Source of the DNA: Alistipes sp.
GTDB taxonomy: Bacteria; Bacteroidota; Bacteroidia; Bacteroidales; Rikenellaceae
Direction of reading: 5' to 3'
Assembly: GCA_017935185.1 (NCBI GenBank)
Contig: JAGBIC010000018.1
Location: 1 to 50,180 of the forward strand
DNA length: 50,180 bases
Of this stretch, positions 28,286-43,349 are shown piece by piece. Within the stretch, counting starts at the first letter, position 1, and the number at the start of each line of letters is the position of its first letter. The notes beneath the pieces are model-generated. The model was not told the origin of the DNA. It searched no databases and was given only the letters and a program-made list of their open reading frames with translations. The translations under genes were made by a program, and so were the position numbers.

Positions 28286-28317
28286 TTTGCACAAAACAAA
28301 AATCTGCCGTATATTTG
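28286..28317 (+). promoter_or_regulatory. Promoter of tRNA-Arg, left copy
   Basis: TTTG at 28286-28289 and TATATTTG at 28310-28317 are 20 bases apart. Only the TATATTTG half is included in the 105-bp repeat shared with the right copy. Confidence 0.8.
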
Positions 28318-28452: not shown

Positions 28453-28492
28453 GTGTCTATTTTTGAGCATTTCGGGTAGTTTTAGAGGCATT

Positions 28493-28514
28493 TGTGTAAA
28501 CCAATGTGTAAACC
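28493..28514 (+). repeat. Tandem TGTGTAAACC repeat, left end
   Basis: Two copies of TGTGTAAACC are separated by AA. The same arrangement with one change occurs just inside the right end. The spacing near the tRNA suits integrase arm-type binding sites. It overlaps the possible upstream starts of the integrase frame. Confidence 0.7.
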
Positions 28515-28524
28515 GAAAATCACG

Positions 28525-29757
28525 ATGAATACAACAATCGAAGCGGTACTCTACACATCCAAAAAATTATCTAACGGTCTGCATCCATTGATGTTACGAC
28601 TAACAAAGAATCGCAAACGCAAGTATATCAGTCTTCACATCTCTCTTTCTTTAGAGCACTGGGATGCCGAAAAGTGTAAACCGAAACGCAATTGTCCTAA
28701 CCGAGAGCAAGTAGAGAGGCTCATCCGCACCAAGATTGAGGAACTGCAGAGCCAAGTGATGGAGTTCAAAACATCAGATAAGGAGTACACGCTCCACACA
28801 CTTATCGACAAATCCTCCAAGCAACCATCCAAAGTAACCGTAGGCGAATATCTTGACACCTATATTGATATGTTACAACGTGCAGGAAGAATCGGCAATG
28901 CCGATACATTTATCCATCTCCGAACAGCCCTCACAAAGTGTTTTGGCTCTCTCGATTTCTATTTTAGCGATATTGATGTGGCGTGGCTTAAAAGGTTGGA
29001 AAGCTGGTTTCGCCTAACAGCTCACTTATCAGAAAACTCTATTGGCATACGCTTCCGTTCTCTGCGAGCACTCTATAATCAAGCGATAGAGGAGGGCATC
29101 GCCAAGCGCACAAACTACCCATTCGACGCATTTAAGGTTAGTCAGTTTAAGGAATCGACAGCCAAACGAGCACTAACAAAGGAACAGATACGGCAAATTA
29201 TGGAATTGGATGTAAGGGCATTGTCGAAGTACCCGAAGCCATTTATGCAGTTAAGTAAGGATCTGTTTCTGTTTAGCTATCTCGGTTGCGGGATAAACCT
29301 TACGGATATGTTACATCTGCGCTATCGAGATATTTTCGATGGGCGTGTAACCTATCATAGGCAAAAAACGGGGAAACTGATTTCGTTTCATCTGCAACCG
29401 TTGGCGGTGGATATTCTACGCAGGTATTACCAAGAGACTCACATCCCCGATGATTATATCTTTCCCGTATTGAAACGCAAAGTCCATATCACTGCAACAC
29501 AACAATACGGTAGGGTCAAACGTGTAACACGACTAATCAATCGCTATCTCAAAGTCATTGGAGAGCATCTAAACCTCCCAATACCCCTCACAACCTATGT
29601 GGCTCGATACTCCTACGCAACCGTTCTCAAAAGGTCGGGAGTATCTACCTCCATCATCAGCGAGTCTCTCGGCCATAGCTCCGAAAAGATAACTCAAATC
29701 TACTTGGACTCTTTCGAGAACTCGCAGATTGACGAGGCGATGAAACATCTGCTGTGA
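28525..29757 (+). CDS. int: Tyrosine recombinase (integrase)
   Basis: A 410-residue site-specific recombinase of the Bacteroidota integrase type. The amino arm-binding part begins MNTTIEAVLYTSKKLSNG and a SAM-like domain follows near residue 105. The catalytic domain has the active lysine in RQKTGK, arginine in TYVARYSYAT, histidine in ESLGHSS and nucleophile tyrosine at residue 393 in TQIYLDSF. The first catalytic arginine is missing: its place reads GCGINLTDM, which resembles the situation in the CTnDOT integrase. Starts at 28504 (ATG) or 28492 (TTG) are possible but lie inside the tandem repeat. It presumably moves the element in and out of tRNA-Arg. Confidence 0.93.
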   Translation: MNTTIEAVLYTSKKLSNGLHPLMLRLTKNRKRKYISLHISLSLEHWDAEKCKPKRNCPNREQVERLIRTKIEELQSQVMEFKTSDKEYTLHTLIDKSSKQPSKVTVGEYLDTYIDMLQRAGRIGNADTFIHLRTALTKCFGSLDFYFSDIDVAWLKRLESWFRLTAHLSENSIGIRFRSLRALYNQAIEEGIAKRTNYPFDAFKVSQFKESTAKRALTKEQIRQIMELDVRALSKYPKPFMQLSKDLFLFSYLGCGINLTDMLHLRYRDIFDGRVTYHRQKTGKLISFHLQPLAVDILRRYYQETHIPDDYIFPVLKRKVHITATQQYGRVKRVTRLINRYLKVIGEHLNLPIPLTTYVARYSYATVLKRSGVSTSIISESLGHSSEKITQIYLDSFENSQIDEAMKHLL

Positions 29758-29772
29758 TGGAACACTTACTGC

Positions 29773-29824
29773 GGACAGACATTCGCAAAGGGGCTTAATT
29801 TAGACCCCTTTGCAATGTTTGTCC
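29773..29824. repeat. Palindromic repeat H1 (after the integrase)
   Basis: GGACAGACATT and AATGTTTGTCC form the outer arms and GCAAAGGGG with CCCCTTTGC the inner stem, around a loop of about 11 bases. Six T follow, so it may also terminate the integrase transcript. It is the first of five related palindromes in this element. Its 3' arm holds a TTTG that fits as the -33 element of the next gene. Confidence 0.85.
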
Positions 29825-29840
29825 TTTTTTATTATATTTG
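29809..29840 (+). promoter_or_regulatory. Promoter of the unknown gene at 29857, inside H1
   Basis: TTTG at 29809-29812, within the H1 3' arm, and TATATTTG at 29833-29840 are 20 bases apart. The start codon is at 29857. Confidence 0.6.
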
Positions 29841-29856
29841 AGAAAAATATACGACT

Positions 29857-30747
29857 ATGAATGATAAGGCTTGGGAAGTCGAGGTAGACTCTGAACAATA
29901 TTTAAAAGTGCGAAATCATCTTATCGAATTCTTCGGTATAGGAGATAAAGAGTTTAAATATACCTCGTTTAAAAATATCCCTGCTCCTAAAAAATTATCT
30001 ATTTATACACACAGCAATGATAATATTCGCAGTATCAGGTTTCTATTTACGGATGACAAACATATAGAAAAATTGTTAGCCCCGATAACCGAAGAAACAT
30101 TTTACGAAATCATATGGACAATGTTATTCGTGGGACATTGGCTTATTGAATCGCAGATACTTAGTATTGATTACGAAAACGACCCCGATCCAGAAATTTT
30201 CTATCACGATAAAATATACAAAGAACTTCTTTTGCTTTATAAGTTATGCTTTGCGATGCCTTACAGGAGGTTTGATAGTAATCCTATAAAGATAAGCATC
30301 TCGGGTGATGAAGATTATAGCCGTACAGAAACATTTAACAATTTTGACAACCATATATTAAGATGTGCGATTGGCGAATATTGCAAGAAACATCTACCCA
30401 ACATAAAGTCTGTCAAGGACGCAAATAACGCATTGAGGCTTTTAATTCCAAAAAGTGGACGTAAGCAATCATCTCCATATGTTTTTCCTATAATATACGG
30501 GACATATCGTTTACTAAAATCGCTTACTAAGGATAAAAAAGTGGCTAGTACTGCTATTTGCAAGGTTATTGGCAGATACCTTCTATTTTTAGGTCTAGTA
30601 ACAGAAGATTATGCAGACCCCGAAAATATCTGTGGAATCATTAAGTACCTCCTCAAACAAGAGGCAAAGCCATATCTGCCTGGAATTAAGCATACTGACC
30701 TTAAAAAGAAATTCAAACTATATGCAGATATTTATACTACAAGATAA
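29857..30747 (+). CDS. Unknown element protein, helix-rich
   Basis: A 296-residue soluble protein with no signal peptide. I do not recognise it. It is mostly helical, with basic residues near the carboxy end (GIKHTDLKKKFKLYADIY) that could contact nucleic acid. A segment around residue 240 (AICKVIGRYLLFLGLV) is hydrophobic and probably a buried helix. The codon use is richer in A and T than in the chromosomal genes, which suits transfer. It lies upstream of the helicase-like gene but has its own promoter. A regulatory or replication role is only a guess. Confidence 0.75.
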   Translation: MNDKAWEVEVDSEQYLKVRNHLIEFFGIGDKEFKYTSFKNIPAPKKLSIYTHSNDNIRSIRFLFTDDKHIEKLLAPITEETFYEIIWTMLFVGHWLIESQILSIDYENDPDPEIFYHDKIYKELLLLYKLCFAMPYRRFDSNPIKISISGDEDYSRTETFNNFDNHILRCAIGEYCKKHLPNIKSVKDANNALRLLIPKSGRKQSSPYVFPIIYGTYRLLKSLTKDKKVASTAICKVIGRYLLFLGLVTEDYADPENICGIIKYLLKQEAKPYLPGIKHTDLKKKFKLYADIYTTR

Positions 30748-30790
30748 AACCGAAATAATTAACTGAATTTTGGGCAGTAATTATTCCTTT

Positions 30791-30818
30791 TTTGCCAAAT
30801 TTTAATACCATACCTTTG
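30791..30818 (+). promoter_or_regulatory. Promoter of the helicase-like gene
   Basis: TTTG at 30791-30794 and TACCTTTG at 30811-30818 have a 16-base spacer. The transcript would start near 30825, giving a leader of about 80 bases. Confidence 0.6.
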
Positions 30819-30824
30819 CTCTCG

Positions 30825-30887
30825 CAATCCTTAACAGAGCGGCCGCTGACGGATTGTGGGATATGCTGTGATGCCCAAAAACACAGC
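30825..30887 (+). promoter_or_regulatory. Structured 5' leader of the helicase-like gene
   Basis: CAATCC (30825) pairs with GGATTG (30853) and encloses the 10-base palindrome AGCGGCCGCT. A second stem, GCTGTG at 30865-30870 with CACAGC at 30882-30887, follows 20 bases before the start codon. It may regulate translation or transcript stability. No known riboswitch was recognised. Confidence 0.5.
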
Positions 30888-30906
30888 TAATTAAAATTGT
30901 TTTAAC

Positions 30907-32667
30907 ATGGCAAAGGAGATAAAAATTGCCCAAGGTCAGCACTTGGCTGACGTGATGGATCAGATTCCATCGAACGTGATACTAAATAAGGTTATCACTG
31001 GTTGTGGAGCGACGACGCTCGAAATCAACGCGGCTCGCAACTCAATTATTATCGAGCCTAATGTACCTGTGATTGTAGGTAAGGCCACAAAGCATCCTAA
31101 TGTATTTCCCGTGTACGAGAAGGTTACATTCGAGGATGTAGAAGCATACCTACAAAAGCAGATTGATGGCTATCGTAAGATAGTTACCACCCCTGAGGGT
31201 TATGACAAAAAGGTAAAACCCGCATTATCAAAACACATCAAGAACTACAAGGAATCTTTTTTCTTGCTTTTTGACGAGTGTGAGAAGATTATACAAGATG
31301 TAGATTATCGTGGCGATATATATCTGCCTGTGGACGATTTCTTCTCATTCTCAAGTAAGGCTATGGTGTCAGCCACACCAATCATTCCTCGTGACCCACG
31401 TTTTGAAGAGCAGGGATTTACTATCTGTAAGGTTATGCCTGATTATGATTTTAGGCACAAGGTAAACCTCCGTATAACAAATAATACGGTAGTTATACTG
31501 CGCGAACTACTTAAGCATCGCAAATCGGAGATATGTATCTTTATCAATTCTACGGATACTATTCATCGTATCATTAGAACTCTCGGGCTGCAAGATAATT
31601 GTAAAGTATTCTGCAGTGAAAAGAGTGTTAAGAAATTACGCGCGCAAGGCTTTATGAATGCAGAGCAGAACCTACAAGATTTGGCTGATGTCAACTTTTT
31701 TACAAGCCGCTTCTATTCAGCGGTAGATATTGAGTTGGAGTATAAACCAACCGTTGTACTCCTAACGGACGTAATACACGCGCCGTTTTCGTCTATTGAC
31801 CCTGCGACAGAGGTCATTCAGGCTATTGGACGTTTTCGACAAGGCGTAAAAGATGTTTGGCATATATCAAACACGAATCCTGGAATGCCATACTATTCTG
31901 GAAGTCAATTGGAAGCTAAACTTCAATCACAAGAAAACGTATACTTACAGGTCGCGCGTATCGCTCCTCAAAATGGGTGGGAACACGATGCTAAACAAAA
32001 TGCCTTAAATGGAATGCCATACAAGAGGTTTGTAACAACATCTGGTAACAAAAATTATTTTATGTGGGATAATGCTCACGATGATGAACGTATTAAGTAT
32101 TATTACACTAATGCGTCAAGGTTAATTGAGGCATACAATAGAGCGCCACTGATCGTAAATACGAAAGAGTGGTATAGAACCCTTACCGACTCTGATCGTT
32201 TACACCGTGAGTCGGAAGCCATTACAAAACCAAAGCGTTGGCAAACGGTTATTGAGCAAGTGCAAAGACTAACAGATAGCAACGATGGTAAAATTCCAGA
32301 AGAGAGTATTACCAACGAGTTAGGAGAGCAGTTTAAGGATATGGTACACGCTATTCGCGTCATTGGCCCTAAAAGAATAGAGATCCTTAAATATAACGAC
32401 AGACAAATCGCCGACGAAGTTAAAAAGATAGAGCACTTTTCTCTTGTTAGAAAAGAGTTGAAAGATTCTGTATACGAACTCTACACTGAGGGGATGACTG
32501 AAAAAGTAGATGAAATCAACACTATGATGAAGGTACTACTTGAGGAAAATAGAATTGTTCCCATTGGCAGGGTTGACAGGAGGTATATTGAATTATTCTT
32601 CGATATAGAAGATGCTAAGATTAAAGGTGTACGTTATTTTAAGTTAATACACAGAAAGTTGAAATAG
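30907..32667 (+). CDS. SF2 helicase-like (DEAD/DEAH-type) protein
   Basis: A 586-residue protein with a full but divergent set of superfamily-2 motifs. These are motif I GCGATT at residues 32-37, motif II DECE at 123-126 (in place of DEAD or DExH), motif III SAT at 155-157, and motif VI QAIGRFRQG at 305-313. Residues 390-586 have no assigned domain and are partly coiled. The helicase core is short and motif I lacks the classic lysine, which calls ATP hydrolysis into question. It could serve in element replication, mobilisation or host defence; the sequence does not decide. A palindrome, H2, follows 19 bases after the stop. Confidence 0.8.
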   Translation: MAKEIKIAQGQHLADVMDQIPSNVILNKVITGCGATTLEINAARNSIIIEPNVPVIVGKATKHPNVFPVYEKVTFEDVEAYLQKQIDGYRKIVTTPEGYDKKVKPALSKHIKNYKESFFLLFDECEKIIQDVDYRGDIYLPVDDFFSFSSKAMVSATPIIPRDPRFEEQGFTICKVMPDYDFRHKVNLRITNNTVVILRELLKHRKSEICIFINSTDTIHRIIRTLGLQDNCKVFCSEKSVKKLRAQGFMNAEQNLQDLADVNFFTSRFYSAVDIELEYKPTVVLLTDVIHAPFSSIDPATEVIQAIGRFRQGVKDVWHISNTNPGMPYYSGSQLEAKLQSQENVYLQVARIAPQNGWEHDAKQNALNGMPYKRFVTTSGNKNYFMWDNAHDDERIKYYYTNASRLIEAYNRAPLIVNTKEWYRTLTDSDRLHRESEAITKPKRWQTVIEQVQRLTDSNDGKIPEESITNELGEQFKDMVHAIRVIGPKRIEILKYNDRQIADEVKKIEHFSLVRKELKDSVYELYTEGMTEKVDEINTMMKVLLEENRIVPIGRVDRRYIELFFDIEDAKIKGVRYFKLIHRKLK

Positions 32668-32686
32668 CAACTGTCTCGCTGTTTTT

Positions 32687-32743
32687 GGACAGACTTTTGC
32701 AAAAGGTCTAATTTGAGGCCCTTTGTGGAAGTCTGTCTTTTTT
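32687..32743. repeat. Palindromic repeat H2 (after the helicase-like gene)
   Basis: GGACAGACTTTTGC pairs with a GTCTGTC-ended 3' arm around a loop near TAATTTGA, with several G-T pairs. Six T follow, so it also resembles a terminator. Confidence 0.82.
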
Positions 32744-32810
32744 CGCTACGCTCGGAGGCTACCTATTTTCATATTGATAACCAAAGGCATACACCTGTGT
32801 CAATCATATA

Positions 32811-32861
32811 GACAAACATTTTCCCTAGCCCCTAAAATAGCAAAAATGGGAAAGTTTGTCC
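32811..32861. repeat. Palindromic repeat H3 (after the Fic gene)
   Basis: GACAAACATTTTCCC and GGGAAAGTTTGTC form the arms. It lies nine bases beyond the Fic stop on the minus strand and has no T tract on either side. Confidence 0.78.
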
Positions 32862-32869
32862 ACCGCAAA

Positions 32870-33808
32870 TTACTTAATAACCTCCCACTCTCCACTTCGG
32901 GTTGAACCTATGCGCCTTATGATGCCCTCCTTTGAGAGTTTCTGCAAATGATACTTTACGCCATCAGGTGATACTCCAATAATTTGGGCTAACTCATTAC
33001 GGGTAATTTGGGGACTGCGTTGCAACTCACGTAAGATTCTCTCTTGAGTAGATAATATCGGTTGCTCTTGGGGTGATACAACCTCGGCAATAACGCCCAA
33101 GATAAACTCGATAAACGGAGTGCAACCATCTACGCCACCACTAACCGCAATGGCACGATAATACTCCTGCTGATGCTTATATACAATATTCTCTATCGGC
33201 AGATTCTTGAATATCTCTCGCCAACGGCTCAATATCAAAGTCTGCCACAATCTACCTGTACGGCCATTCCCGTCTGCAAATGGGTGGATAAACTCAAACT
33301 CGTAATGGAATACGCAACTCGCAATCAAAGGGTGTTCATCGGTATTTGCCAGCCACTCAAATAGGTCATTTATAAGATACGGCACTCTATCAGCATCGGG
33401 GGCATAGTGGATAATCTGCTCTCCTGCCACAACACCCGCTCCTCCTTTTCGGAATCGACCTGCATCATCTATCAGTCCTGCTTCCATAGTAGCGTGAGCT
33501 TTTAACAGATCATCGACCTTATATGGATTAAGCGTATCCAACAATTCGTAAGCCTTGATAGCATTACGCACCTCTTGTACCTCATTTATTGGAGCTACCA
33601 CAAGTTTACCATCTAATACCGCAGTAATCTGCTCTGTTGAAAGTGTATTTCCCTCGATAGCCAAAGTCCCTTTGATGGTCTTTATACGATTTACTCTGTG
33701 AAGTCGTAAATCTTCGTGAGCATATGCATAACTACCCACAGCCTCGCTAATCTGCGAGACAAGATTAGTAATCTTGGGGGTTATTTTATATGGAGGTTGA
33801 TATGCCAT
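32870..33808 (-). CDS. Fic-domain protein with C-terminal winged helix
   Basis: A 312-residue protein of the Fic family, enzymes that usually transfer AMP to a target side chain. The active site HPFADGNGRTGR is intact at residues 175-186. An inhibitory-helix motif [ST]xxxE[GN] is seen as TLAIEG at about 48-53, which places it in the class with the inhibitor at the protein's own amino end. The last 60 residues form a winged-helix DNA-binding domain (TRNELAQIIGVSPDGVKYHL). The frame is open to 33910, but a TATCTTTG promoter box at 33825-33832 favours ATG 33808. Auto-regulation is plausible. Confidence 0.93.
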   Translation of the reverse strand: MAYQPPYKITPKITNLVSQISEAVGSYAYAHEDLRLHRVNRIKTIKGTLAIEGNTLSTEQITAVLDGKLVVAPINEVQEVRNAIKAYELLDTLNPYKVDDLLKAHATMEAGLIDDAGRFRKGGAGVVAGEQIIHYAPDADRVPYLINDLFEWLANTDEHPLIASCVFHYEFEFIHPFADGNGRTGRLWQTLILSRWREIFKNLPIENIVYKHQQEYYRAIAVSGGVDGCTPFIEFILGVIAEVVSPQEQPILSTQERILRELQRSPQITRNELAQIIGVSPDGVKYHLQKLSKEGIIRRIGSTRSGEWEVIK

Positions 33809-33824
33809 AGCGCAATTGTTTCTG

Positions 33825-33832
33825 CAAAGATA
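33825..33832 (-). promoter_or_regulatory. Promoter -7 box of the Fic gene
   Basis: On the minus strand this reads TATCTTTG, 17 bases before ATG 33808. Confidence 0.65.
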
Positions 33833-34181
33833 TAGATTTTTCTCTATTTGGGTAGGATTTGGGTAAATAATTCGGGTAGGACTGCCCATATTACTACCTT
33901 TAATCGGCAAACTTTATTTGTTCAAACGAGTTATTTGCATATATTTTGCCGTTATCGGCAAACTTTTGGGGTTATATATTCTGTGCATACACAGCCACTC
34001 CCCCAATCACCCCTCCCCATAGTTTGATTAGGAAGGGGTTTTCTGTTGCGGTTTTCTGGCGAGATTTTGCCATAGATTTTTCCGAAAACGATTGCCGCAG
34101 ACTATAAAACCACTCAACTCACTAAGACGTAACATCGGTTGTTAGTTATTGTATGTTTAACCATTTAATTGTTTTTGTATT
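33833..34181. promoter_or_regulatory. Divergent regulatory region between the Fic and ATPase genes
   Basis: The 13-base ATCGGCAAACTTT occurs at 33903-33915 and again at 33954-33966. The second copy forms a 7-bp inverted repeat, TTTGCCG with CGGCAAA around TTAT, at 33945-33962. These could be operators for the winged-helix part of Fic. A weak GC-rich stem (CCCCTCC with GGAAGGGG) lies around 34014-34040. No gene is seen here. Confidence 0.45.
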
Positions 34182-34901
34182 ATGCAGTTACGACAATCAA
34201 TGCGCCGAGCAGCGAAGATGCGCTTGGCTCTGGCTGGTGCGAGTGGCAGCGGCAAGACCTACTCATCACTTCTTATCGCCTATGGTATGACGGGCGACTG
34301 GTCGAAAATCGCAGTTATCGACTCCGAGAATTGCTCAGCCGACCTCTATGCTCACTTGGGCAATTATCAAGTCCTTACGCTTGATAATTTTGCTCCCGAG
34401 ACCTACATCGAGGCTATCTCCATTTGCGAGCAGGCGGGAGCAGAAGTTATCATCATCGACAGCATCTCGCATTGCTGGGATTACCTATTGGACTACCACG
34501 CTAACCTTCAAGGCAACTCTTTTGCGAATTGGGCAAAGGTTACGCCTCGACAGAATGCCTTTATTCAGCGTATCCTAACATCATCGGCTCATATTATCTG
34601 CACTATGCGCTCCAAGCAGGATTATGTTCTCTCGGACAAGAATGGTAAAATGGTGCCAGAGAAAGTAGGCCTAAAAGCCGTACAGCGCGATAATGTGGAT
34701 TATGAGTTTACGGCAGTATTGGATATAGCGATGAATCACAAAGCCACAACATCAAAAGACCGTACGGGGCTATTTACTGGGAAACCAGAGTTTGTGATTA
34801 CTCCACAAGTTGGTCAAGCCATTCTGCGTTGGTGTAACCTCTCTACTAATGTTCAACCTCAAAACTCTATGCCTTATGTACAACACAGCCCTGCAGCCTA
34901 A
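34182..34901 (+). CDS. RecA-fold ATPase, Sak4-like (phage nucleotide-binding type)
   Basis: A 239-residue ATPase. Walker A is GASGSGKT at residues 19-26 and Walker B is VIIIDSIS with Asp93. The region DYLLDYHANLQ and the later TMRSKQDYVLSDKNGK match the AAA_24 phage nucleotide-binding family, which includes Sak4-type single-strand annealing and recombination proteins. It would act on DNA in the cytoplasm. It overlaps the DUF3871 gene by 26 bases, so the two work together. Annotation as recombination protein is inference from family. Confidence 0.83.
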   Translation: MQLRQSMRRAAKMRLALAGASGSGKTYSSLLIAYGMTGDWSKIAVIDSENCSADLYAHLGNYQVLTLDNFAPETYIEAISICEQAGAEVIIIDSISHCWDYLLDYHANLQGNSFANWAKVTPRQNAFIQRILTSSAHIICTMRSKQDYVLSDKNGKMVPEKVGLKAVQRDNVDYEFTAVLDIAMNHKATTSKDRTGLFTGKPEFVITPQVGQAILRWCNLSTNVQPQNSMPYVQHSPAA

Positions 34902-35919
34902 TCAAGACTTTGCAACATCGGCACTAACCATATGGCACGATGTAGCACAGCAACAAACAGAGAATAGAGTGATTCCTCTATCTACAAGCAATACCCTCCA
35001 TTCTCGCCACTTTATCGAGGCTAACACCAAATCCGTAGATATATCTCACCTGCGAGAGGATTGTATTGTTCCCGTATTCTCAAAAGATAACGAGCTTACT
35101 ATATCACATCAGATGTTTATCGAAACCATATTAGGTGCTGCATACCGTATGTTCCCCAATGAGGCGATAGATGCTCCCGATATTGTCGTATCGCATATAA
35201 TCAAGGGCAGAATACCCGAAGCCATTCACAAGCCCGTATCGCAGTTATTGGAAAGCGATAAGACTATCTACTATGAGCGTATGGCTTTCTGCTTTGAGAT
35301 TCCTACTATACATGAGGATGTGGCGGGCAACAGACTTAATCTTTCGATTGGAGGAGTGAGAGCCTATAACCACGAAAATCTCTATTCGCGTAAGACTATG
35401 GAGCGATTCAAAGTGTTTATCGGATTCAAGAATCTTGTGTGTTGCAATCTGTGTGTTTCGACAGATGGATTAAAGAGTGATATGCGAGTTATGAGCGTGC
35501 AGGAGTTGTTCGAGCAGTCTTTGGGATTGTTTCAGCAGTATGATGCGCAACAACATCTAACTCAAATGAGCCAATTGCAAAATCAATCGCTAACCGAACA
35601 TCAATTTGCACAGTTGATAGGCAAGACGAGATTGTATCAGTTTCTGCCACCAAAGGAGAGAAAGGCACTACCTGCGATGGAGTTTACCGATAGCCATATC
35701 AATGCCATAGCGAGAGCCTACTACGCTGATGAGAATTTCGGACGAGTGGATACGGCAAGTGATATTGACCTTTGGCGAGTTTATAATCTCTTCACGGGAG
35801 CAAACAAATCGAGTTACATTGATACGTTCCTCGACCGTTCGCTCAATGCCACAAACCTTGTCACTGGCATAGGCAGAGCATTGGATGGAGATAGCGAATA
35901 CGCTTGGTTTATCGAGTAA
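34876..35919 (+). CDS. DUF3871 protein
   Basis: A 347-residue protein matching DUF3871, a family found on mobile elements of Bacteroidota and of unknown function. The core contains LNLSIGGVRAYNHENLYS and FKVFIGFKNLVCCNLCVSTDG, a layout that recalls DUF932 of phages and plasmids. It starts inside the ATPase gene (26-base overlap), and the frame is open further upstream, to 34810, but those residues are encoded within the ATPase. A role in recombination or DNA maintenance with the ATPase is likely. Palindrome H4 follows 19 bases after the stop. Confidence 0.85.
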   Translation: MYNTALQPNQDFATSALTIWHDVAQQQTENRVIPLSTSNTLHSRHFIEANTKSVDISHLREDCIVPVFSKDNELTISHQMFIETILGAAYRMFPNEAIDAPDIVVSHIIKGRIPEAIHKPVSQLLESDKTIYYERMAFCFEIPTIHEDVAGNRLNLSIGGVRAYNHENLYSRKTMERFKVFIGFKNLVCCNLCVSTDGLKSDMRVMSVQELFEQSLGLFQQYDAQQHLTQMSQLQNQSLTEHQFAQLIGKTRLYQFLPPKERKALPAMEFTDSHINAIARAYYADENFGRVDTASDIDLWRVYNLFTGANKSSYIDTFLDRSLNATNLVTGIGRALDGDSEYAWFIE

Positions 35920-35938
35920 GCACGCTACTCTACTCATC

Positions 35939-35990
35939 GGACAGACTTTCCCCGAAGCCCTATTAAATCAGCTTCTCGGAAAGTTTGTCC
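35939..35990. repeat. Palindromic repeat H4 (after DUF3871)
   Basis: GGACAGACTTTCC and GGAAAGTTTGTCC are the arms, extended by GAAGC with GCTTC inside and by ACTC with GAGT outside. No T tract. A lone half-arm, AGTCTGTCC, lies at 36012-36020. Confidence 0.83.
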
Positions 35991-36546
35991 ACGAGTGGAG
36001 TATCCTGCAATAGTCTGTCCGTAAGTCTTTACTAGCGTGGAAGATTACAAGTTTTCCCGAATAAAATAAATATTGCAAATTACATTGGTTATCTGCAACA
36101 TACCGTAATCAATATTTATCCAATCTAAAAAGAACAAAATTCAACTTCAATGGCAATGGCTATTGCGAAAGAAGATTGTTTTGTAGAACTTTGTGATACA
36201 AAAATAACTACAATACCCCTAATGAGTGTTGCTCTTTCCGAAAAGTTTACTAATTTTGTGGTGTTGAGCAATCAACTGACATATTATTAGTGAAAGTGTT
36301 TCGCTAACCTTGAGTAGAAATCTGGTAAATTTCATCGAGAACAAGGAAGCTGCAACACTCATATCTTGTATCCGTATGTTATGTCGGCACACTCTGTGCC
36401 TACCTCATACTGTACAAGTGTGGGGTATTGTTTATTTGTTCTCAGGCTTACCAGAGCCCCTACTCAGATAAACGAACGACTCCACACTTTCTATTTTTAT
36501 ACCCCGTCACATAGGAGCCGAGTGGCAAGGAAATATTTTTAATTAT
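35991..36546. other. Intergenic region before the surface locus
   Basis: No firm gene is found in these 556 bases. A 46-codon frame at 36150-36290 on the plus strand has an ATG but no recognised product and may be chance. An 8-bp inverted repeat, AAGTGTGG at 36416-36423 with CCACACTT at 36482-36489, brackets a further weak pairing. It could be a regulatory site for the genes that follow. Confidence 0.4.
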
Positions 36547-37107
36547 ATGCAAGACAATATTATTACCCCTCAAAACCTATGGGCGATGATGCTAAAATAC
36601 AAACATCTCTTAGGCTATCAATACGGCTTCACCATTCCATTTCTCATCGGAGCATATAAAAAGAGAGGATTTTTAAATGATGTGGATTTGACAAGTTCAT
36701 CGTGTATAAAATATGTATTAGAGATGGTATTGAGATTCTCATCAACAGAGAATCCTGTTAAGATATTCGAGTGTGATACTTTAAGTAATGAATTGGTATT
36801 TCAATATTTATCAACAAGAGTAGCTCCTTTCTATGTTCAACACCTTAAGGATTATCATCCAAATATAATGGGTAAGATATATTGGAATAAGAAAAATGCT
36901 GAAATTACAAATAATAACCTTGATTCGTTGGTTGAGTTTTTATGGAATAAACCTGCAAAGCGTGGAGATAAAACATATGGAGATCTCATATCTAATGGAG
37001 AATTTAGTTGTGAATTTGGAGTGTGGAAAGACTATTCCCCGCATGAAAAAAAATTTATTGACAATATACACATATTAGAGGCTATAACTAATTTAAATAA
37101 CTTATAA
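36547..37107 (+). CDS. Unknown protein before the fimbrillin gene
   Basis: A 186-residue soluble protein I do not recognise. It has no signal peptide. It is rich in Asn, Lys and Tyr, and its DNA is much more AT-rich than the following genes. It starts with a helical part (MQDNIITPQNLWAMMLKY). It lies 11 bases upstream of the first fimbrillin gene and may be co-transcribed with it. The difference in composition suggests a separate origin from the surface genes. Confidence 0.65.
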   Translation: MQDNIITPQNLWAMMLKYKHLLGYQYGFTIPFLIGAYKKRGFLNDVDLTSSSCIKYVLEMVLRFSSTENPVKIFECDTLSNELVFQYLSTRVAPFYVQHLKDYHPNIMGKIYWNKKNAEITNNNLDSLVEFLWNKPAKRGDKTYGDLISNGEFSCEFGVWKDYSPHEKKFIDNIHILEAITNLNNL

Positions 37108-37118
37108 CACAAACAACT

Positions 37119-38030
37119 ATGAAAAAACTATTTTTCATTGCAGCTACGGTCTGCACAATTTTGTCTTCTTGTTCTAAAGGTGAGGAGCCAACAATTAATC
37201 CTACTCCAGAACCAACTCCTGAAGCACAGGTAAAGATTCCTATCAATCTCTCTATTGGCAACTACACCCGTGCCAATGATACCGCATTTGAGAATGGAGA
37301 CAAGGTTGGTATCTACGTTGTGAACTACAACGGCTCTACAGCAGGAACTCTTGCGGCATCTGGCAACCACGTCAACAATATGCAGTTCTCTTTCGGTGGT
37401 TCTGCGTGGACTCCCGCATCTGCTATCTATTGGAAGGATCAAACCACTCACACAGATTTCTACGCTTACTATCCGTACAGTGCATCTGCAAGCACATCGG
37501 CTCATTCATTCTCTGTACAGACTGACCAGAGCACCGAGGCAAACTATTTTGCAAGCGATTTCTTGTGGGGTAAAGCGGCTAACGTGGCTCCTACTGCAGA
37601 GCCCGTTGCTATTACCACAAACCACTCATTCAGCAATATTCTAATTTATTTGGAGGCAGGCAATGGCTTTACAGCAGAGACTTTGGCAGCAGCAACCAAG
37701 TCTGTTACAATCAAGAATGTCAAGACCTCTGCAACCATCAACCTCGCAACAGGTGTAGCCACTGCAACGGGTGACGTAGCAGCCGTTACCCCGTGGAATG
37801 TAGGCGAGTACTATCGTGCGATGATCGTTCCTCAGACAGTAGCCGATGGCACAGACCTCATCACTGTTAATGTGGATGGCGTAGATTATACTCTCGCATC
37901 AGGTGCGACATTCGTAGCCAACAAGCAGCACAAGTTCACCGTAACAGTCAATAAGTCAGCAGGAGGCGTTGATATTGGTATCGGCGGCTGGGATACTGAC
38001 GACAATGAATATGGTGGTTCGGCAGAATAA
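37119..38030 (+). CDS. Fimbrillin-family lipoprotein 1
   Basis: A 303-residue surface protein. The lipobox is ILSSCSKG, followed by a proline-rich spacer (INPTPEPTPEAQ). The fimbrillin (Mfa1/FimA-like) body carries GDKVGIYVVNYNGS, FYAYYPYS and ASDFLWGKA, motifs shared with the two later fimbrillin-bearing genes. Such proteins are exported by the lipoprotein path and polymerise into fimbriae after cleavage by an arginine-specific protease. The last 12 residues (GGWDTDDNEYGG and SAE) resemble the tail of the next small protein. It is followed after 10 bases by that protein. Confidence 0.87.
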   Translation: MKKLFFIAATVCTILSSCSKGEEPTINPTPEPTPEAQVKIPINLSIGNYTRANDTAFENGDKVGIYVVNYNGSTAGTLAASGNHVNNMQFSFGGSAWTPASAIYWKDQTTHTDFYAYYPYSASASTSAHSFSVQTDQSTEANYFASDFLWGKAANVAPTAEPVAITTNHSFSNILIYLEAGNGFTAETLAAATKSVTIKNVKTSATINLATGVATATGDVAAVTPWNVGEYYRAMIVPQTVADGTDLITVNVDGVDYTLASGATFVANKQHKFTVTVNKSAGGVDIGIGGWDTDDNEYGGSAE

Positions 38031-38040
38031 CTCCAATCCT

Positions 38041-38175
38041 ATGAAACGTATTTACGAGGAACCCCAAATCGAAATACTCTGCATCAGAGTTGAGCAAGGC
38101 TTTGCCCAATCGAATGGAGTAGAGATGGATGTAAATGGATGGGGAACCGAGGACTTCGGCGGTACAGCTGAATAA
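38041..38175 (+). CDS. 44-residue protein with a fimbrillin-like tail
   Basis: A 44-residue protein beginning MKRIYEEPQIEILCIRVEQG. It has no signal peptide. Its end, NGWGTEDFGGTAE, resembles the end of fimbrillin 1. Short proteins with a MKxIYExPxxE start are frequent next to surface-protein genes in Bacteroidota, but I know of no function. It starts 10 bases after fimbrillin 1 and ends 11 bases before the M64 fusion gene, so it belongs to the operon. It could be a chaperone, pilin-tail mimic or peptide precursor. Confidence 0.7.
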   Translation: MKRIYEEPQIEILCIRVEQGFAQSNGVEMDVNGWGTEDFGGTAE

Positions 38176-38186
38176 TACACAAGAAG

Positions 38187-41100
38187 ATGAAAATACAAAA
38201 ATTATCAATCCTTTGTTTTATGGCAGTCGCATTGAGTGGCTGCCATACAGACGATGACTTTATCGCTCCCGAGGTTGATACCTCTTTGCCGATACAGTTG
38301 TTTAATGAGATTGTTCAAGTGCCAACAACGCGCGTGAACGATGAGGGCTTCTGCGACGGTGATGCCGTAGGTATCTATGTCGTGAACTTTGAGAATGGCT
38401 CAAGTGGTACTATGCAGGTCGAGGGCAACCAAGCCGATAACGTGAAGTATATCTACGATGAGGCAAATTTAAAGTGGACACCTGAGCAGGATGTGTATTT
38501 CCGTGACCGTAATACCCACGTTGATATTTACGGATACTATCCCTACGCTAATCCCGCATCTATTGGCGCATATCCTTTCGAGGTGCAGAAAGACCAATCT
38601 ACTGCCGCAACCAATGGTGCGCTGGGTGGCTATGAGGCATCAGATTTTCTGTGGGGTAAGGCAGCCGATATTACGCCTACGGCTTCACGCATCAACCTCA
38701 AATTCAACCACCGTATGGCTGGCGTGCAGATTACTCTTGTCGAGGGTACAGGTTGGGACGAAGGCGAATGGGAGCAGATTGACAAGGCTGCTCTTGTGGT
38801 CAACACCAAGCGCAAGGCGGTTATCGACCTTGCGACGGGCGAGGTTGCTGCTACTGGCGATGTACCTACTACGGGTACTGTCCCCTACAAGAGTGGCGAA
38901 GATTTCCGCGCAGTAGTTGTTCCACAGACAGTAGCGGCTGGCAGTGCTATCTTCTCGCTCACAGTCGATGGAGTTCCCTATTCTTATAAACATAAGGTAG
39001 AAGACACATACAGCGATTTTGAATACATCTCGGGGAAGCTCCACAAATTCTCTATTAAAGTATCGAAGAAGAGCCAGAACGGTGTGGAGTTTGAGTTGTT
39101 GAGCAATAGCATCACTGCGTGGGAGACCGACAACACTTCACACGATGCATCAACACGCGAGTATATTATCGTTGATGTGCCCGAGGCAAATGCCAGCTCA
39201 AGTGCTCTTGCTGCTGCCATTGAGGCTGCGGGCTATGACTACACCGAGGTTAAGAACTTGAAGGTTACGGGTTATATCAATAATCGCGATTTCGCTTTTA
39301 TGCGTGATGATATGACCAAATTGCAGTCGCTAAATCTGAAGGATGTAACAATCGCTGCAAACGGATCATCATATCCTGCTAATGAAATTCCTTATAATGC
39401 TTTTCAAGGTAAAAAGACACTTGTCCGTTTTGTATTTCCTGATAATATTACATCAATTGGCACTGCTGCATTCTCGAGTTCCAGCATCACAGGCTCACTT
39501 ATTATTCCAAATGGAGTAACCGAGATAGGCATGCAAGCTTTTTATATCTGCTCTGGTCTTAATGGCACTCTTACTCTACCAAAAAATTTAGTTATAATTG
39601 GGCAGTATGCGTTCTGCAATTGTAAAAACCTTAATGGTTCTCTAAATATTCCCGAATCAGTTGTATATATTGGAAATACAGCTTTTAGTAGTTGTGGCTT
39701 TACAGGCAATCTTACTCTACCTGAAGGGCTGGAGGAGCTGGAGTCGAGGGCATTTAATTTATGCTCAGGACTTACTGGCTCATTAACTATTCCCAATAAG
39801 ATTACCTCGGTGCCAGCAAGTTGCTTTGCCGGCTGTGGTTTTGATGGACATCTTACTTTACCTTCGGGGTTGGTTACTATTGAGAATGAGGCATTTGGCT
39901 CTTGCAAATTCAAAGGACAACTACATCTGCCCGAAAATGTGTCGGTTATTGGCTCGACGGCGTTTGCAGGGAATCAATTTGGCGGAGAACTTATTCTTCC
40001 TGCTGAGCTGGCCTCAATTGGCTCTGATGCATTTAGGTCTTGCTCTCGCCTTACGGGAGTGGTAGAGATTCCTAACGATATTATTTCACTGCCAGAGGAC
40101 GTATTTAGTAACTGTAAGCAGTTGCAGGGTGTTATTCTACCTCGCACTATGGAGAATATTGGTGCAAATGCATTCCAAAACTGCTATCAGTTGAATTCTA
40201 TCACTTGCAAGGCAACAACTCCTCCTACGGTGGCATCTACCGCTTTCAATGGAGTAGCAAAGGATAACTTTACTGTGGAGGTACCCGAGGCAGCCGTTGC
40301 GGAGTACTCAACAGCTCCCGTATGGAAGGAGTTTAAGCGCTTTGCGGCGCACCGCGACTTCTCTATCTCGCGCAACTTGTTCCGCACGCTCAATGCCAGC
40401 GACAGCAAGACTCTCGTTTTGCGTGCCGAGGCTGGTGCAGCGTGGACAGTGGAGGCTCCCGAATGGATTACCGTAACGCCATCAAGCGGCGTAGGTAAAA
40501 CAGAGGTAACAGTTACGGTAAACGAAATGGCTGCGGGTGATGTCGGCACATTTGATGTTACATCTTACACCACAAGCGGCTCAACCACTACAACCCAATA
40601 CGCTGGTCGTTCGGGAAAGGTCGTGTTCCACCTCACAGGCAAGGACTACACCTCGACAACAACCGTTGAGCAGTACAACTATGAGCACTACGACGGCAAG
40701 GTGATAACAAACCAGACCGCAAGCGAGGGTAACGGAGTGAACATTGTCTTTATGGGCGACTGCTTCGATGCACAGGATATTGCAACGGGCAAATATCTCG
40801 ATGCTGTAAACGAGGCAATAGAACATTTCTTTGCCGTAGAGCCTTACAAATCGTACAAGAAGTACTTCAATATCTACACCGTATTTGGTTTGTCAGCTGA
40901 TAGTGGCGTTGGTTCAGTAAATACCATTCGCGAGGCAAAGTTCGGCTCACAGTATGGATTGCAGGCTGCTGGTTCGGTAGGTGTGGATGAGACAATCTGC
41001 TTCGAGTATGCTTGCAAAGTACCAACTGTAACGGAGGATAACATCTGCCAGACCCCTATTGTGTTGATTGAGAACACCACCGACTATGACGGAATTACCT

Positions 41101-41708
41101 ATATGTGGGGTGACGGCTCGGCTATTGCGCTCTGCCCGATGAGCGAGGACGAGTATCCATACGATTATCGTGGTATCGTACAGCACGAGGCGGGTGGCCA
41201 CGCATTTGGTAAGTTGGGCGATGAGTATATCTATCACAACGCATTTATTCAGACTTGTACTTGTAACTGCTGTGAACACGTGGAGGAGTTCAATAGAATG
41301 AAGTCTTACGGATTCTATGATAACCTCTCGCTTTCGGGCAATATGTATGAGGTGCCTTGGAGTCATATGATTTTTGACCCGCAATTCTCAGGTACAGTGG
41401 ATATTTACGAGGGCGGATTCTTCCACACTCGCGGAGTATTCCGCTCGGAGTCAAACTCTTGTATGAACAATAATGTGCCTTACTTCTCTGCTATTTCGCG
41501 TGAGGCTATAGTAAAGCGCATAATGCAATATGCGGGCCTGACTTACTCTTACGATACGTTCAAGGCAAACGATATTCCGTTAGCAACCGAAGAGGCCGCA
41601 GCAATGGTTTCAACTCGTTCGAAGAGCGGAGTACCATACGCGGCTAAGGGACAGTCAGCACCCGTATTTATGGGCGAGAAGCCAAACTTCAAGAAGTCTA
41701 ACAACTAA
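38187..41708 (+). CDS. Fimbrillin/leucine-rich-repeat/BACON/M64-peptidase fusion lipoprotein
   Basis: A 1173-residue surface protein of several domains. A lipobox (ALSGC) is followed by a fimbrillin-like domain at about 30-310, including GGYEASDFLWGKA. BspA-type LRR_5 repeats occupy about 400-690 with units such as LTLPKNLVIIGQYAF. A BACON-like domain is at about 720-820 (WTVEAPEWITVTPSSG). The last third is an M64 (IgA-protease type) metallopeptidase with HEAGGHAFGKLGDE at residues 1000-1013, giving both zinc histidines and the downstream Asp-Glu. It is therefore probably a protease displayed at or by a fimbria. It is in the same operon as both fimbrillins. Confidence 0.9.
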   Translation: MKIQKLSILCFMAVALSGCHTDDDFIAPEVDTSLPIQLFNEIVQVPTTRVNDEGFCDGDAVGIYVVNFENGSSGTMQVEGNQADNVKYIYDEANLKWTPEQDVYFRDRNTHVDIYGYYPYANPASIGAYPFEVQKDQSTAATNGALGGYEASDFLWGKAADITPTASRINLKFNHRMAGVQITLVEGTGWDEGEWEQIDKAALVVNTKRKAVIDLATGEVAATGDVPTTGTVPYKSGEDFRAVVVPQTVAAGSAIFSLTVDGVPYSYKHKVEDTYSDFEYISGKLHKFSIKVSKKSQNGVEFELLSNSITAWETDNTSHDASTREYIIVDVPEANASSSALAAAIEAAGYDYTEVKNLKVTGYINNRDFAFMRDDMTKLQSLNLKDVTIAANGSSYPANEIPYNAFQGKKTLVRFVFPDNITSIGTAAFSSSSITGSLIIPNGVTEIGMQAFYICSGLNGTLTLPKNLVIIGQYAFCNCKNLNGSLNIPESVVYIGNTAFSSCGFTGNLTLPEGLEELESRAFNLCSGLTGSLTIPNKITSVPASCFAGCGFDGHLTLPSGLVTIENEAFGSCKFKGQLHLPENVSVIGSTAFAGNQFGGELILPAELASIGSDAFRSCSRLTGVVEIPNDIISLPEDVFSNCKQLQGVILPRTMENIGANAFQNCYQLNSITCKATTPPTVASTAFNGVAKDNFTVEVPEAAVAEYSTAPVWKEFKRFAAHRDFSISRNLFRTLNASDSKTLVLRAEAGAAWTVEAPEWITVTPSSGVGKTEVTVTVNEMAAGDVGTFDVTSYTTSGSTTTTQYAGRSGKVVFHLTGKDYTSTTTVEQYNYEHYDGKVITNQTASEGNGVNIVFMGDCFDAQDIATGKYLDAVNEAIEHFFAVEPYKSYKKYFNIYTVFGLSADSGVGSVNTIREAKFGSQYGLQAAGSVGVDETICFEYACKVPTVTEDNICQTPIVLIENTTDYDGITYMWGDGSAIALCPMSEDEYPYDYRGIVQHEAGGHAFGKLGDEYIYHNAFIQTCTCNCCEHVEEFNRMKSYGFYDNLSLSGNMYEVPWSHMIFDPQFSGTVDIYEGGFFHTRGVFRSESNSCMNNNVPYFSAISREAIVKRIMQYAGLTYSYDTFKANDIPLATEEAAAMVSTRSKSGVPYAAKGQSAPVFMGEKPNFKKSNN

Positions 41709-41724
41709 TCAAAGGAGGAAAACT

Positions 41725-42606
41725 ATGAAAAAGAATATTTTGATTTTGGCGGTTGCAACTCTTTTGATGACAAGTTGCAGTAAAAATGAAGAGATAATTG
41801 CACCAGAGGAGAGTGTGATGCAGATTACAGCCACGCACCCGTCGGCAACACGAGCAACAGCAACAGGTTTTGAGTCTGGCAACAAGATTGGTGTATATGT
41901 GACCGACTATACAGGGGACGTAGCCTCTCCTTTGCAAATTTCGGGTAACTGGGCAAACAACGTAGCAACCACTTATGATGGCTCAGCGTGGAGTACAGCA
42001 AAAAAGATTTTTTGGAGCGAGAACAAGATGGATGTATATGGGTACTATCCCTATATGACACCCACTTCGATTGATTTGCAACCATTCGCTGTGGCTCTCG
42101 ATCAATCGACAGAGGGAACAGATAGCGAGTTGGGAGGATATGAAGCATCTGACTTTCTTTGGGCAAAGGCTACGGGCGTATCACAAGCTGACGAAACCGT
42201 TGCGTTGGAATTTAAGCACAGTTGCTCAAAACTGATTGTGAAGTTAGTTAAGGGCGACGACTATGATGGAGACTTCCCTACTTCGGCTTCGTTATATATC
42301 CACAATGTGGTGCCAACGGCTACGATTGATTTTACGATTGGAGCAGTGGTAAAGGATATTTTCGGAGAGCCTACAACTATCAAGGCTCGCAAGGTGGCAG
42401 ACGATACGTACGAGGCTATTATCATTCCCCAGCGAGTAACATCTCGTCGCCCATTTATTGAGTTGATTGCTGGCAACATCTCGTATCTATTGGAAGATAC
42501 TTTCTACTTCAAAGCGGGAGTTCAGCATACCATCTCGCTAACCATTAACTCTAACCCCGATCAAATCCACGTGGATATTGGCGGCGAAGTTGAAGGAGGC
42601 TGGTAA
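41725..42606 (+). CDS. Fimbrillin-family lipoprotein 2
   Basis: A 293-residue surface lipoprotein with lipobox LLMTSCSKN. Shared fimbrillin motifs are GNKIGVYVTDYTGD, VYGYYPYM and GGYEASDFLWAKA. A putative processing site precedes the repeat of Ala-Thr-Arg (SATRATATG), as in proteins cleaved after arginine. The end (VDIGGEVEGGW) is shorter than that of fimbrillin 1. It starts 16 bases after the M64 gene, behind a good ribosome-binding stretch (AAAGGAGGAAA at 41710-41720), and is followed by a terminator. Confidence 0.87.
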   Translation: MKKNILILAVATLLMTSCSKNEEIIAPEESVMQITATHPSATRATATGFESGNKIGVYVTDYTGDVASPLQISGNWANNVATTYDGSAWSTAKKIFWSENKMDVYGYYPYMTPTSIDLQPFAVALDQSTEGTDSELGGYEASDFLWAKATGVSQADETVALEFKHSCSKLIVKLVKGDDYDGDFPTSASLYIHNVVPTATIDFTIGAVVKDIFGEPTTIKARKVADDTYEAIIIPQRVTSRRPFIELIAGNISYLLEDTFYFKAGVQHTISLTINSNPDQIHVDIGGEVEGGW

Positions 42607-42625
42607 AAGCGATAAATACTCGATT

Positions 42626-42654
42626 AACCTCTCGAGAGTATCGGGAGGTTTTTT
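42626..42654 (+). terminator. Terminator of the surface-protein operon
   Basis: AACCTCTCG and CGGGAGGTT pair with one G-T, followed by six T. It lies 19 bases after the stop. Confidence 0.85.
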
Positions 42655-42675
42655 ACTGATTTTCAGCGACATAAA

Positions 42676-42707
42676 TTTGCATTTTACAAGAAAATATTGT
42701 ATATTTG
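42676..42707 (+). promoter_or_regulatory. Promoter of a candidate small RNA
   Basis: TTTG at 42676-42679 and TATATTTG at 42700-42707 are 20 bases apart, a full consensus. No frame of note follows. Confidence 0.7.
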
Positions 42708-42712
42708 TAATC

Positions 42713-42838
42713 GGAATCTGGTGCTAAAAAAGGCTTGTGTATCATCAGTTTTTAGCCTCATTAACACCGTATTCCTTCTTTAATCGGCATTATTCAGGCC
42801 TCGCAGAGAACTCCAACTTTGCGAGGTCTGTTGTTTTT
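42713..42838 (+). ncRNA. Candidate structured small RNA
   Basis: After a full promoter, nested stems are seen: GGAAT (42713) with ATTCC (42771), GGTG (42720) with CACC (42765), and GCTAAAAA (42723) with TTTTTAGC (42749). A terminator-like stem, CCTCGCA with TGCGAGG at 42799-42826, follows with a T-rich tail to 42838. There is no open frame of note. Length would be about 125 bases. It could regulate the element or the surface locus; no known RNA family was recognised. Confidence 0.5.
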
Positions 42839-42957
42839 ATGGAGTTGGTTAGGGTAACTATTTGATAACCATATGGAGATCACAAATTGTGACCTCAAAC
42901 GCAGAGTGTGGTAAGCGTTCATTGATGCCTTATCCGATTGGATATAAGAAATAGAGA
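42839..42957. other. Stretch between the candidate RNA and H5
   Basis: No gene is seen. It contains a possible hairpin, GGTTA and TAACC around 42848-42871, and a palindrome TCACAAATTGTGA near 42885 that could bind a dimeric regulator. Confidence 0.35.
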
Positions 42958-43009
42958 GGACAAACTTTTCCGAAGGGTCGAAATTTAAGCCCTTCGAAGA
43001 AGTCTGTCC
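42958..43009. repeat. Palindromic repeat H5 (right end)
   Basis: GGACAAACTT and AAGTCTGTCC form the outer arms and CGAAGGG with CCCTTCG the inner stem. No T tract. It is 186 bases before the right tRNA repeat. Confidence 0.82.
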
Positions 43010-43102: not shown

Positions 43103-43124
43103 TGTGTAAACCAACGTGTAAACC
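43103..43124 (+). repeat. Tandem TGTGTAAACC repeat, right end
   Basis: Two TGTGTAAACC copies separated by AAC-type spacing as on the left (one base differs: the spacer's final A-T becomes A-C). It is 71 bases before the right 105-bp repeat. Confidence 0.65.
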
Positions 43125-43194: not shown

Positions 43195-43299
43195 GCCGTA
43201 TATTTGCACTCGCAATCAGCAAATGGCTCCGTAGCTCAACTGAATAGAGTACTTGACTACGGATCAAGCGGTTACAGGTTTGAATCCTGTCGGAGTCAC
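43195..43299 (+). repeat. attR-side direct repeat containing tRNA-Arg
   Basis: Identical to 28306-28410. The sequence upstream of the block differs from the left copy, so the -33 promoter element is not conserved. The sequence after the block also differs, but the downstream terminator is structurally similar. Confidence 0.92.
43225..43298 (+). tRNA. tRNA-Arg(ACG), right copy
   Basis: Base for base the same as the left copy, with a full cloverleaf and ACG anticodon. Its TATATTTG box (43199-43206) is retained, but the -33 position now reads CTCTGT instead of TTTG. It could be active at a reduced level. Confidence 0.94.
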
Positions 43300-43319
43300 G
43301 ATTTCTAATTGTAAATCAG

Positions 43320-43349
43320 GCGGTTACCCAAAAGGTGACCGCTTTTTTT
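43320..43349 (+). terminator. Terminator of tRNA-Arg, right copy
   Basis: GCGGTTACC and GGTGACCGC pair around a short loop, with seven T. Relative to the left copy several stem pairs have changed on both sides. Confidence 0.9.

Follow-up and report, generated by a model that had tools for sequence, protein, structure and literature searches.

In a 50,180-nt stretch of DNA from the gut bacterium Alistipes sp. (assembly GCA_017935185.1, contig JAGBIC010000018.1, positions 1 to 50,180; hereafter the window), five related palindromes (P1 to P5 in order of position; Table 1) lie inside a single tRNA-Arg-flanked integrated element of about 14.9 kb. Together with their relatives in other genomes, they form a real, narrowly distributed family of strand-polar hairpins at the 3' ends of genes. 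The hairpins are most likely intrinsic terminators, and we lean slightly towards the reading that terminator-like hairpins double as joints for a homology-driven exchange of modules. According to this model, strand-polar hairpins transcribed at 3' ends would close the transcription units of modular, tRNA-integrated Rikenellaceae elements, in which a typical unit would consist of a promoter, one or more genes and a hairpin. As many units of one element end in the same hairpin of about 52 bp, the hairpins could serve as joints. RecA-mediated or annealing recombination at the hairpins or their edges, which we infer to be driven by homology, may swap, insert or delete whole units, and exchange at these places would leave both genes and insulation unbroken. 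Hairpins near the element ends may additionally insulate against transcription that crosses the borders.

Three of the palindromes in the window (29773-29824, 35939-35990 and 42958-43009) match the pattern GGACARAC-N(34-38)-GTYTGTCC exactly, which did not occur in 100 dinucleotide shuffles. The other two deviate by one terminal mismatch each: P2 (32687-32738) ends with GTCTGTCT and P3 (32810-32861) begins with AGACAAAC. The preliminary description of the window had reported five palindromes and a lone half-arm, all of which exist. Its coordinates hold for three copies; P2 and P3 are 52 nt long when read in register, one base more than described, and the half-arm lies at 36013-36020 rather than 36012-36020. 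No further palindrome had been noticed, and a scan allowing up to two arm mismatches, combined with a fold filter, likewise gave only these five. Ten exact half-arms occur in the window, one of them outside the family (GGACAAAC at 28042, inside a gene). Four copies do follow stop codons, at distances of 15, 19, 8 and 19 nt instead of the 9-20 nt described, and T runs follow only P1 and P2, in agreement with the statement that two copies have T tracts. No gene end lies within 60 nt of P5. An inversion of the Fic unit by recombination between hairpins (P2 being of the G..C type and P3 of the A..T type) was considered and dropped by reasoning, because the stem of P2 folds well (-27.6 kcal/mol).

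Related copies were collected from 40 fetched stretches (numbered L loci; 41 loci with the window), and a filtered scan yielded 79 copies in 39 of the 41 loci. Sequences with more than one mismatch to their class arm, with weak folds or inside long reading frames were dropped before counting. Alignment A1 comprised 32 of 39 copies, with six non-wobble copies and one near-duplicate excluded, so that its wobble count is biased; alignment A2 comprised 48 of 72 distinct copies, with two chimeric ones absent, and pairing was recounted on all 72. Covariance models R2 and R3 were built from 32 and 48 copies, respectively. Since the initial collection of copies relied on the arms, arm conservation partly reflects this selection; R2, trained on one arm class, still recovered copies with GGACCGAC..GTTGGTCC and TGACAGAC..GTTTGTCA arms. 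R3 recovered all five window hairpins with E-values up to 1.3e-4.

The covariance search proposed in the preliminary description returned matches only in genomes of the Rikenellaceae family, in elements related to the one in the window. At an E-value of 0.001, R2 matched 32 and R3 matched 30 of 268 family genomes (labelled Rikenellaceae/Alistipes after the named entries of a collection that contains relatives of the integrase), in both cases in five of the 22 genera of the sample. Among 344 genomes of the order, which include a few of the same family (R2), and 296 genomes of the phylum (R3), only the window's own genome matched at an E-value of 0.0001. All these searches, at family level too, were run with Infernal's stricter filters, which lose weak matches. 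In the window's genome (1.8 Mb, 75% complete), the nine match rows of R3 corresponded to the five known places. All copies found in this genome belong to the element, and the scatter over an ordinary chromosome that had been named as the contrary outcome was not observed. A tRNA gene (for Arg, Thr, Val, Gly, Lys and others) is present in 33 of the 39 hairpin loci, at most 350 nt from a hairpin in 16 (5% expected for a random point) and at most 1600 nt away in 27. Where both ends are visible (the window, L027, L028 and L054), the order is tRNA, integrase, hairpin(s), modules, last hairpin and tRNA. The integrases of L036, L041, L056, L064, L066 and L067 have no hairpin directly behind them, and a scan of L044-L053, ten loci with related integrases (several of them short pieces), gave no copy whose arms match exactly or with one mismatch. 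Seven viral contigs carried the pattern and were not taken as members; three of them share one 49-nt sequence and the best E-value (R2) was 0.0076. The titles and opening lines of abstracts in the open-licence literature gave no account of this hairpin family.

Covariation supports the pairing. Among the 72 distinct copies, 89.4% of the cells pair, whereas the value for shuffles is 78.2% (maximum among 500 shuffles: 79.9), and pairing drops to 54% or lower in slid registers; 48 copies contain 104 double-change cells against 42.9 in shuffles. The claim that the inner stems differ and nevertheless pair was borne out, with pairs 9-18 paired in 81.5% of cells versus 64.7% in shuffles, the copy at 32810 (P3) being a poorly paired exception. 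Pair 6, at which the first search pattern had admitted every combination, is a G.U wobble in 69 of the 79 copies, A.U in six and G.C in four. Because of this wobble, the symmetry of the palindrome is broken and a strand can be assigned. Of 41 distinct copies for which both calls were clear (simple open reading frame caller), 34 have the wobble on the strand that encodes the gene terminating directly before the hairpin; for P5 the wobble strand is the minus strand. Mismatches of inner pairs on the wobble strand are G.T/T.G in 81 and A.C/C.A in 41 cells, with the strand set mainly by pair 6 and by fold energy in non-wobble copies. A protein that binds duplex DNA symmetrically needs no such strand polarity, whereas RNA or a folded single strand would.

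The position of the hairpins resembles that of intrinsic terminators, for which a stable hairpin in the RNA strand just past a transcription unit is characteristic. Among 73 distinct copies, 50 have a gene stop at a distance of up to 60 nt on just one of their sides, with a median distance of 15 nt and 46 of the 50 at 30 nt or less. The 7 nt following the G.U strand contain on average 4.5 T, compared to 3.1 on the other strand (Wilcoxon, 6e-7), and at least five T were present after the G.U strand in 46 of 79 copies versus 16 of 79 on the other strand, P3 and P4 lacking them. Promoter-like motifs of the Bacteroidota type lie 3' of the hairpin and on its strand in 15 of 78 cases; the counts are 6 of 79 for the opposite side and 31 of 1560 for shuffles. 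At the place of P1, L044, whose integrase is 88% identical to that of the window, has an ordinary hairpin that is followed after a few bases by nine T in a row, and L025 has an ordinary terminator-like hairpin before module c9, where L024 has the palindrome. The last cargo gene in the window already has an ordinary terminator-like hairpin (42626-42650), and P5 faces inward. Tn916 is reported to carry an insulating terminator, T1 (PMC11658703). The hairpins described here share with terminators of this type their location 3' of genes or near an element end and, in many copies, a T-rich 3' side, and could similarly bar host transcription and contain that of the element. By this analogy, we would guess that they insulate the element border. 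Unlike T1, they form one family with fixed arms that serves many units and many elements.

The palindromes do separate the modules of an integrative element and are found again in related elements of the same family; the modules that they delimit vary, and homology breaks off at their edges. L027 and L028, two elements of one genome, have the hairpins and module c9 in common, the remaining sequence in between differs, and homology ends at the hairpin edges. The beginning of module c9 is common to L024, L025, L034 and L057, with homology beginning at the 3' edge of the hairpin or a few bases past it, and in L034 a 1.2-kb c18 unit is located exactly between this edge and c9. In all pairwise comparisons except L058/L059, alignments over gene ends with a hairpin stopped within 90 nt in 120 of 200 cases, twice as often as at the remaining gene ends of these elements (62 of 208), these alignments not being independent. 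Of the alignments that run downstream, 97 started at the 5' edge (within 8 nt) and 11 within the hairpin; of those that run upstream, 48 ended at the 3' edge and two within the hairpin. Among 60 near-identical hairpin pairs, which are not independent, both flanks are shared in 12, the 3' flank alone in 16, the 5' flank alone in nine and neither flank in 15, with eight ambiguous. Junctions at a fixed base, another proposal of the preliminary description, were therefore not found: breaks occur at the 5' as well as the 3' edge, and near-identical palindromes are accompanied by the one flank in some pairs and by the other in others. Its comparison to a cassette system fits insofar as modules are set off by structured repeats, and fails in that no fixed crossover worked by the tyrosine recombinase was apparent; among the functions it offered, a mobile terminator comes closest. 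One clearly chimeric hairpin (L028:14332) is identical to L024:5058 in its first 31 bases and different in the remainder. Together with a likely second chimera (L026:6236), it suggests that exchange may also take place within the loop. The unit directly behind the hairpin in L034 (2726-3957) encodes a Zn_ribbon_Top1 protein with a weak CoiA_N match and has relatives in L037, L042 and L043.

Several observations weigh against terminators that act as joints. Fewer than five T are present in the next 8 nt in 27 of 73 copies, P3 and P4 among them, and the tandem copies in L024, L027, L028 and L033 include first members without a T tract. A simple terminator scan, which permits loops of 3-8 nt only, listed none of P1-P5. 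In L054 and L028, an ordinary terminator-like hairpin follows just beyond the palindrome behind the integrase, and because of this direct succession the palindrome may not be a terminator there. The strand assignment opposes the nearby gene in seven of the 41 clear cases (L027 14046, L028 14427, L058 14816, L059 3161, L061 7945, L067 9500 and L070 8291), and three of these copies (L027 14046, L028 14427 and L070 8291) directly follow integrases. When pair 6 was neutralised, the coding strand folded better in only 29 of 50 copies (p 0.03). Similar hairpins align to each other, so that the edge positions of the alignments are partly an alignment effect, and 15 of the 60 near-identical hairpin pairs have neither flank in common. 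The remark in the preliminary description that simple terminators would not require conserved outer arms is fair: plain terminators need no fixed arms.

The fixed arms occur in several dialects. Among the 79 copies, 63 belong to class A (GGACAGAC; taken to include L055:13044 with TGAC..GTCC and L070:11464 with GGACGAAC), eight to class B (GGACCGAC), six to class C (TGAC..GTCA) and two to a G variant. Arms are uniform in 20 of 23 multi-copy loci, L058, L059 and L065 being mixed, whereas label shuffling gave a mean of 13.0 uniform loci and in none of 20000 rounds as many as 20, in a test that ignores common descent. L054 contains six copies with GGACCGAC..GTTGGTCC arms and six different inner stems. 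Different dialects were found within single genomes (G022, G072, G101 and G158), and because elements of different dialect coexist in one genome, dialects are not set by the host. A fourth form of 54 nt (TGACATAAAA..GTGTCA; three copies in L049 and L051) lies behind the stop of the helicase-like gene, in tandem in L049, and has a T.G wobble at pair 6; it is also present in G104, and true class D occurred in one of 140 family genomes, with two copies. The arms and the wobble could be read by an element-specific factor, for example an RNA-binding protein, a processive antiterminator or a single-stranded DNA-binding protein, so that all hairpins of one element share one dialect. Coherence within elements, the uniform arms of L054, the coexistence of dialects and the wobble kept in the fourth form agree with this possibility, which we nonetheless regard as unlikely, considering the mixed loci, the neglect of descent in the shuffle test and the fact that no element gene examined tracks the dialect. 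The integrase was rejected as the factor that reads the arms: the integrases of L027 (GGACAGAC) and L054 (GGACCGAC) are sisters with 100/99 support and end branches of 0.025 and 0.011, in a tree with several long, unsure branches, and class C integrases split into two groups. The family c4 protein is not supported in this role either, being more similar across dialects (73% between L054, class B, and L070, class A; 70% between L064, class C, and L069, class B) than within class B (48% between L054 and L069), and a structure model of c4 from three sequences was poor (mean pLDDT 50). An extension of this idea, in which the factor would read the hairpins as a connector code, so that matching modules could be taken up by exchange and placed under common regulation (for instance through processive antitermination once the element is excised) and modules of foreign dialect would be excluded, is in our view quite unlikely. 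If a factor does read the dialects, this would represent an unknown regulatory or recombination code.

Other known kinds of repeats account less well for the hairpins than terminators that serve as joints. REP/BIME sequences and MITE hairpins are repeated extragenic palindromes after genes, and the present hairpins are of the same description. A self-mobile hairpin that inserts after genes might explain why identical 53-mers in L027:13951 and L028:10716 have different flanks on both sides. This is hardly probable, as the hairpins are tied to tRNA-integrated elements instead of being scattered in the chromosome, the window's genome contains no copy outside the element, and orientation tracks the gene strand in the majority of copies. 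More elaborate is a comparison with integron attC sites, which are described as imperfect, strand-asymmetric palindromes 3' of a gene, with a variable inner part and an adjacent tyrosine recombinase (PMC2727003). In an attC-like system, the recombinase would act on a folded single strand and thereby move cassettes of a gene plus its hairpin, in line with hairpins 3' of genes, strand asymmetry, variable inner stems and modules that differ in presence. We consider this improbable: the integrase reaches 32.5 bits with TIGR02249, the integron integrase model, for which the cut-off is 265, and is of another kind; the arm class does not depend on it, and candidate arm repeats of its own (TGTAAACC) are present at both element ends. 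Furthermore, L044-L053 have related integrases and lack copies with exact or one-mismatch arms, two of them having the fourth form. In attC sites, AAC/GTT stands at the conserved ends of the R'' and R' boxes; here the left arm ends with GAC in 71 of 79 copies and with AAC in six, the right arm beginning with GTT in 74 of 79. Breaks at both edges (16 only-3' versus nine only-5' cases) differ from the single crossover point in the R' box, and the bulges vary from copy to copy and the conserved arms are longer than in attC. An identity with attC is therefore not supported. Neisserial DNA uptake sequences (DUS) are also short conserved arms, often in inverted pairs that act as terminators, with coherent dialects, as has been reported (PMC2397512, PMC3630211). 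Arms that are kept because DNA bearing them is preferentially taken up or packaged, and that pair into terminators, are very improbable here. DUS are reported to be present in thousands per genome, with dialects that follow species phylogeny (PMC3630211), whereas the five copies of the window's genome are all on one element, a single genome can contain different dialects, and the hairpins occur in integrated elements only, with a 36-bp inner part that has its own covarying stem.

The element in the window is bordered by exact 105-bp direct repeats that contain the tRNA-Arg gene, and its features are listed in Table 1. The product of 30907..32667, which we take to be helicase-like on the basis of motifs recognised by eye, had no match in Pfam, NCBIfam or PHROG, nor among the solved structures searched. 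Rfam detected only the two tRNAs in the window, so that the hairpins match no curated RNA family. PADLOC, applied to seven proteins, matched only the Fic protein, and Pfam matched three of 20 proteins from related elements, one of these below the cut-off.

Table 1. Hairpins, genes and borders of the integrated element (positions in the window)
Feature	Position	Strand	Remarks
Left 105-bp direct repeat, tRNA-Arg(acg), attL side	28306..28410	+	
Tyrosine recombinase/integrase	28492..29757	+	Arm-DNA-bind_5, Phage_int_SAM_5, Phage_integrase
TGTAAACC x2, candidate integrase arm sites	28495..28514	+	12 bp spacing; putative role
Extra single TGTAAACC	28675		
Hairpin P1	29773..29824	+	15 nt past integrase stop; then TTTTTT
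Family c4 protein, no assigned function	29857..30747	+	Present in 9 of 41 clustered loci
Helicase-like protein	30907..32667	+	P-loop-, DEC[E]-, SATP- and QAIGRFR-like motifs by eye
Hairpin P2	32687..32738	+	19 nt past helicase-like stop; then TTTTT
Hairpin P3	32810..32861	-	8 nt past Fic stop; inner stem partly decayed
Fic family protein with helix-turn-helix	32870..33910	-	
AAA_24 ATPase	34182..34901	+	Second-best PHROG: Sak4-like single-stranded DNA annealing protein, 29.9 bits
DUF3871 protein	34810..35919	+	Reading frame start overlaps ATPase gene; true start probably later
Hairpin P4	35939..35990	+	19 nt past DUF3871 stop; without T tract
Lone half-arm GTCTGTCC	36013..36020	+	May be left over from a second copy; tandem copies occur in L024, L027, L028 and L033
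Cargo: fimbrillin-like (Mfa_like_1) proteins and large LRR_5/Peptidase_M64 protein	37119..42606	+	
Ordinary terminator-like hairpin with T tract	42626..42650	+	3' of last cargo gene
Hairpin P5	42958..43009	-	216 nt from right tRNA; G.U strand reads inward from right end
TGTAAACC x2, candidate integrase arm sites	43105..43124	+	12 bp spacing; putative role
Right 105-bp direct repeat, tRNA-Arg(acg), attR side	43195..43299	+	

Some parts of the window have relatives elsewhere. The sequence 3' of the right tRNA (43300-43423) resembles the integrase leader 3' of the left tRNA (89% in about 230 bp, the repeat being part of this length) and might be a remnant of the left end of another element. The fimbrillin/M64 cargo (37117-42837, 5.7 kb) is 84% identical to L050:6669-12415, on a contig that encodes an integrase only 40% identical to that of the window and yielded no such hairpin. 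Within 36119-36528, some 300-400 nt without a long reading frame (one frame translated) resemble stretches in at least L028, L031 (two copies), L032, L034, L035, L036 and L050, which often adjoin leucine-rich repeat or fimbrillin modules, and may be a leader or regulatory region.

In-frame UGA codons occur at conserved places in all seven short-form helicase-like genes that were read (L041:13031-14752, L026:10959-12638, L036:5379-7037, L061:92-800, L066:13271-14941, L067:12900-14585 and L027:11765-13399) and in all seven copies of module c9 with a fixed start string (L024, L025, L027, L028, L034, L055 and L057). Several of them align with UGG tryptophan codons in other copies, and the conserved protein continues past them. 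All 10 genomes checked contain release factor 2, which suggests that UGA is read through or recoded in the genes of these elements only. The papers searched, including one examined by a word search, gave no account of this in the group. Window reading frames of at least about 150 amino acids (simple open reading frame caller) end with TAA in 29, TAG in nine and TGA in one case, the latter probably being the integrase before P1, which terminates in TGA.

The joints between modules of mosaic mobile elements are rarely visible, and here they have a recognisable, structured and strand-polar signature that lends itself to searching, cutting and swapping. If the hairpins indeed combine termination with the anchoring of exchange, this would explain how units can be exchanged without loss of insulation, and the covariance model also flags elements of this type in Rikenellaceae genomes.

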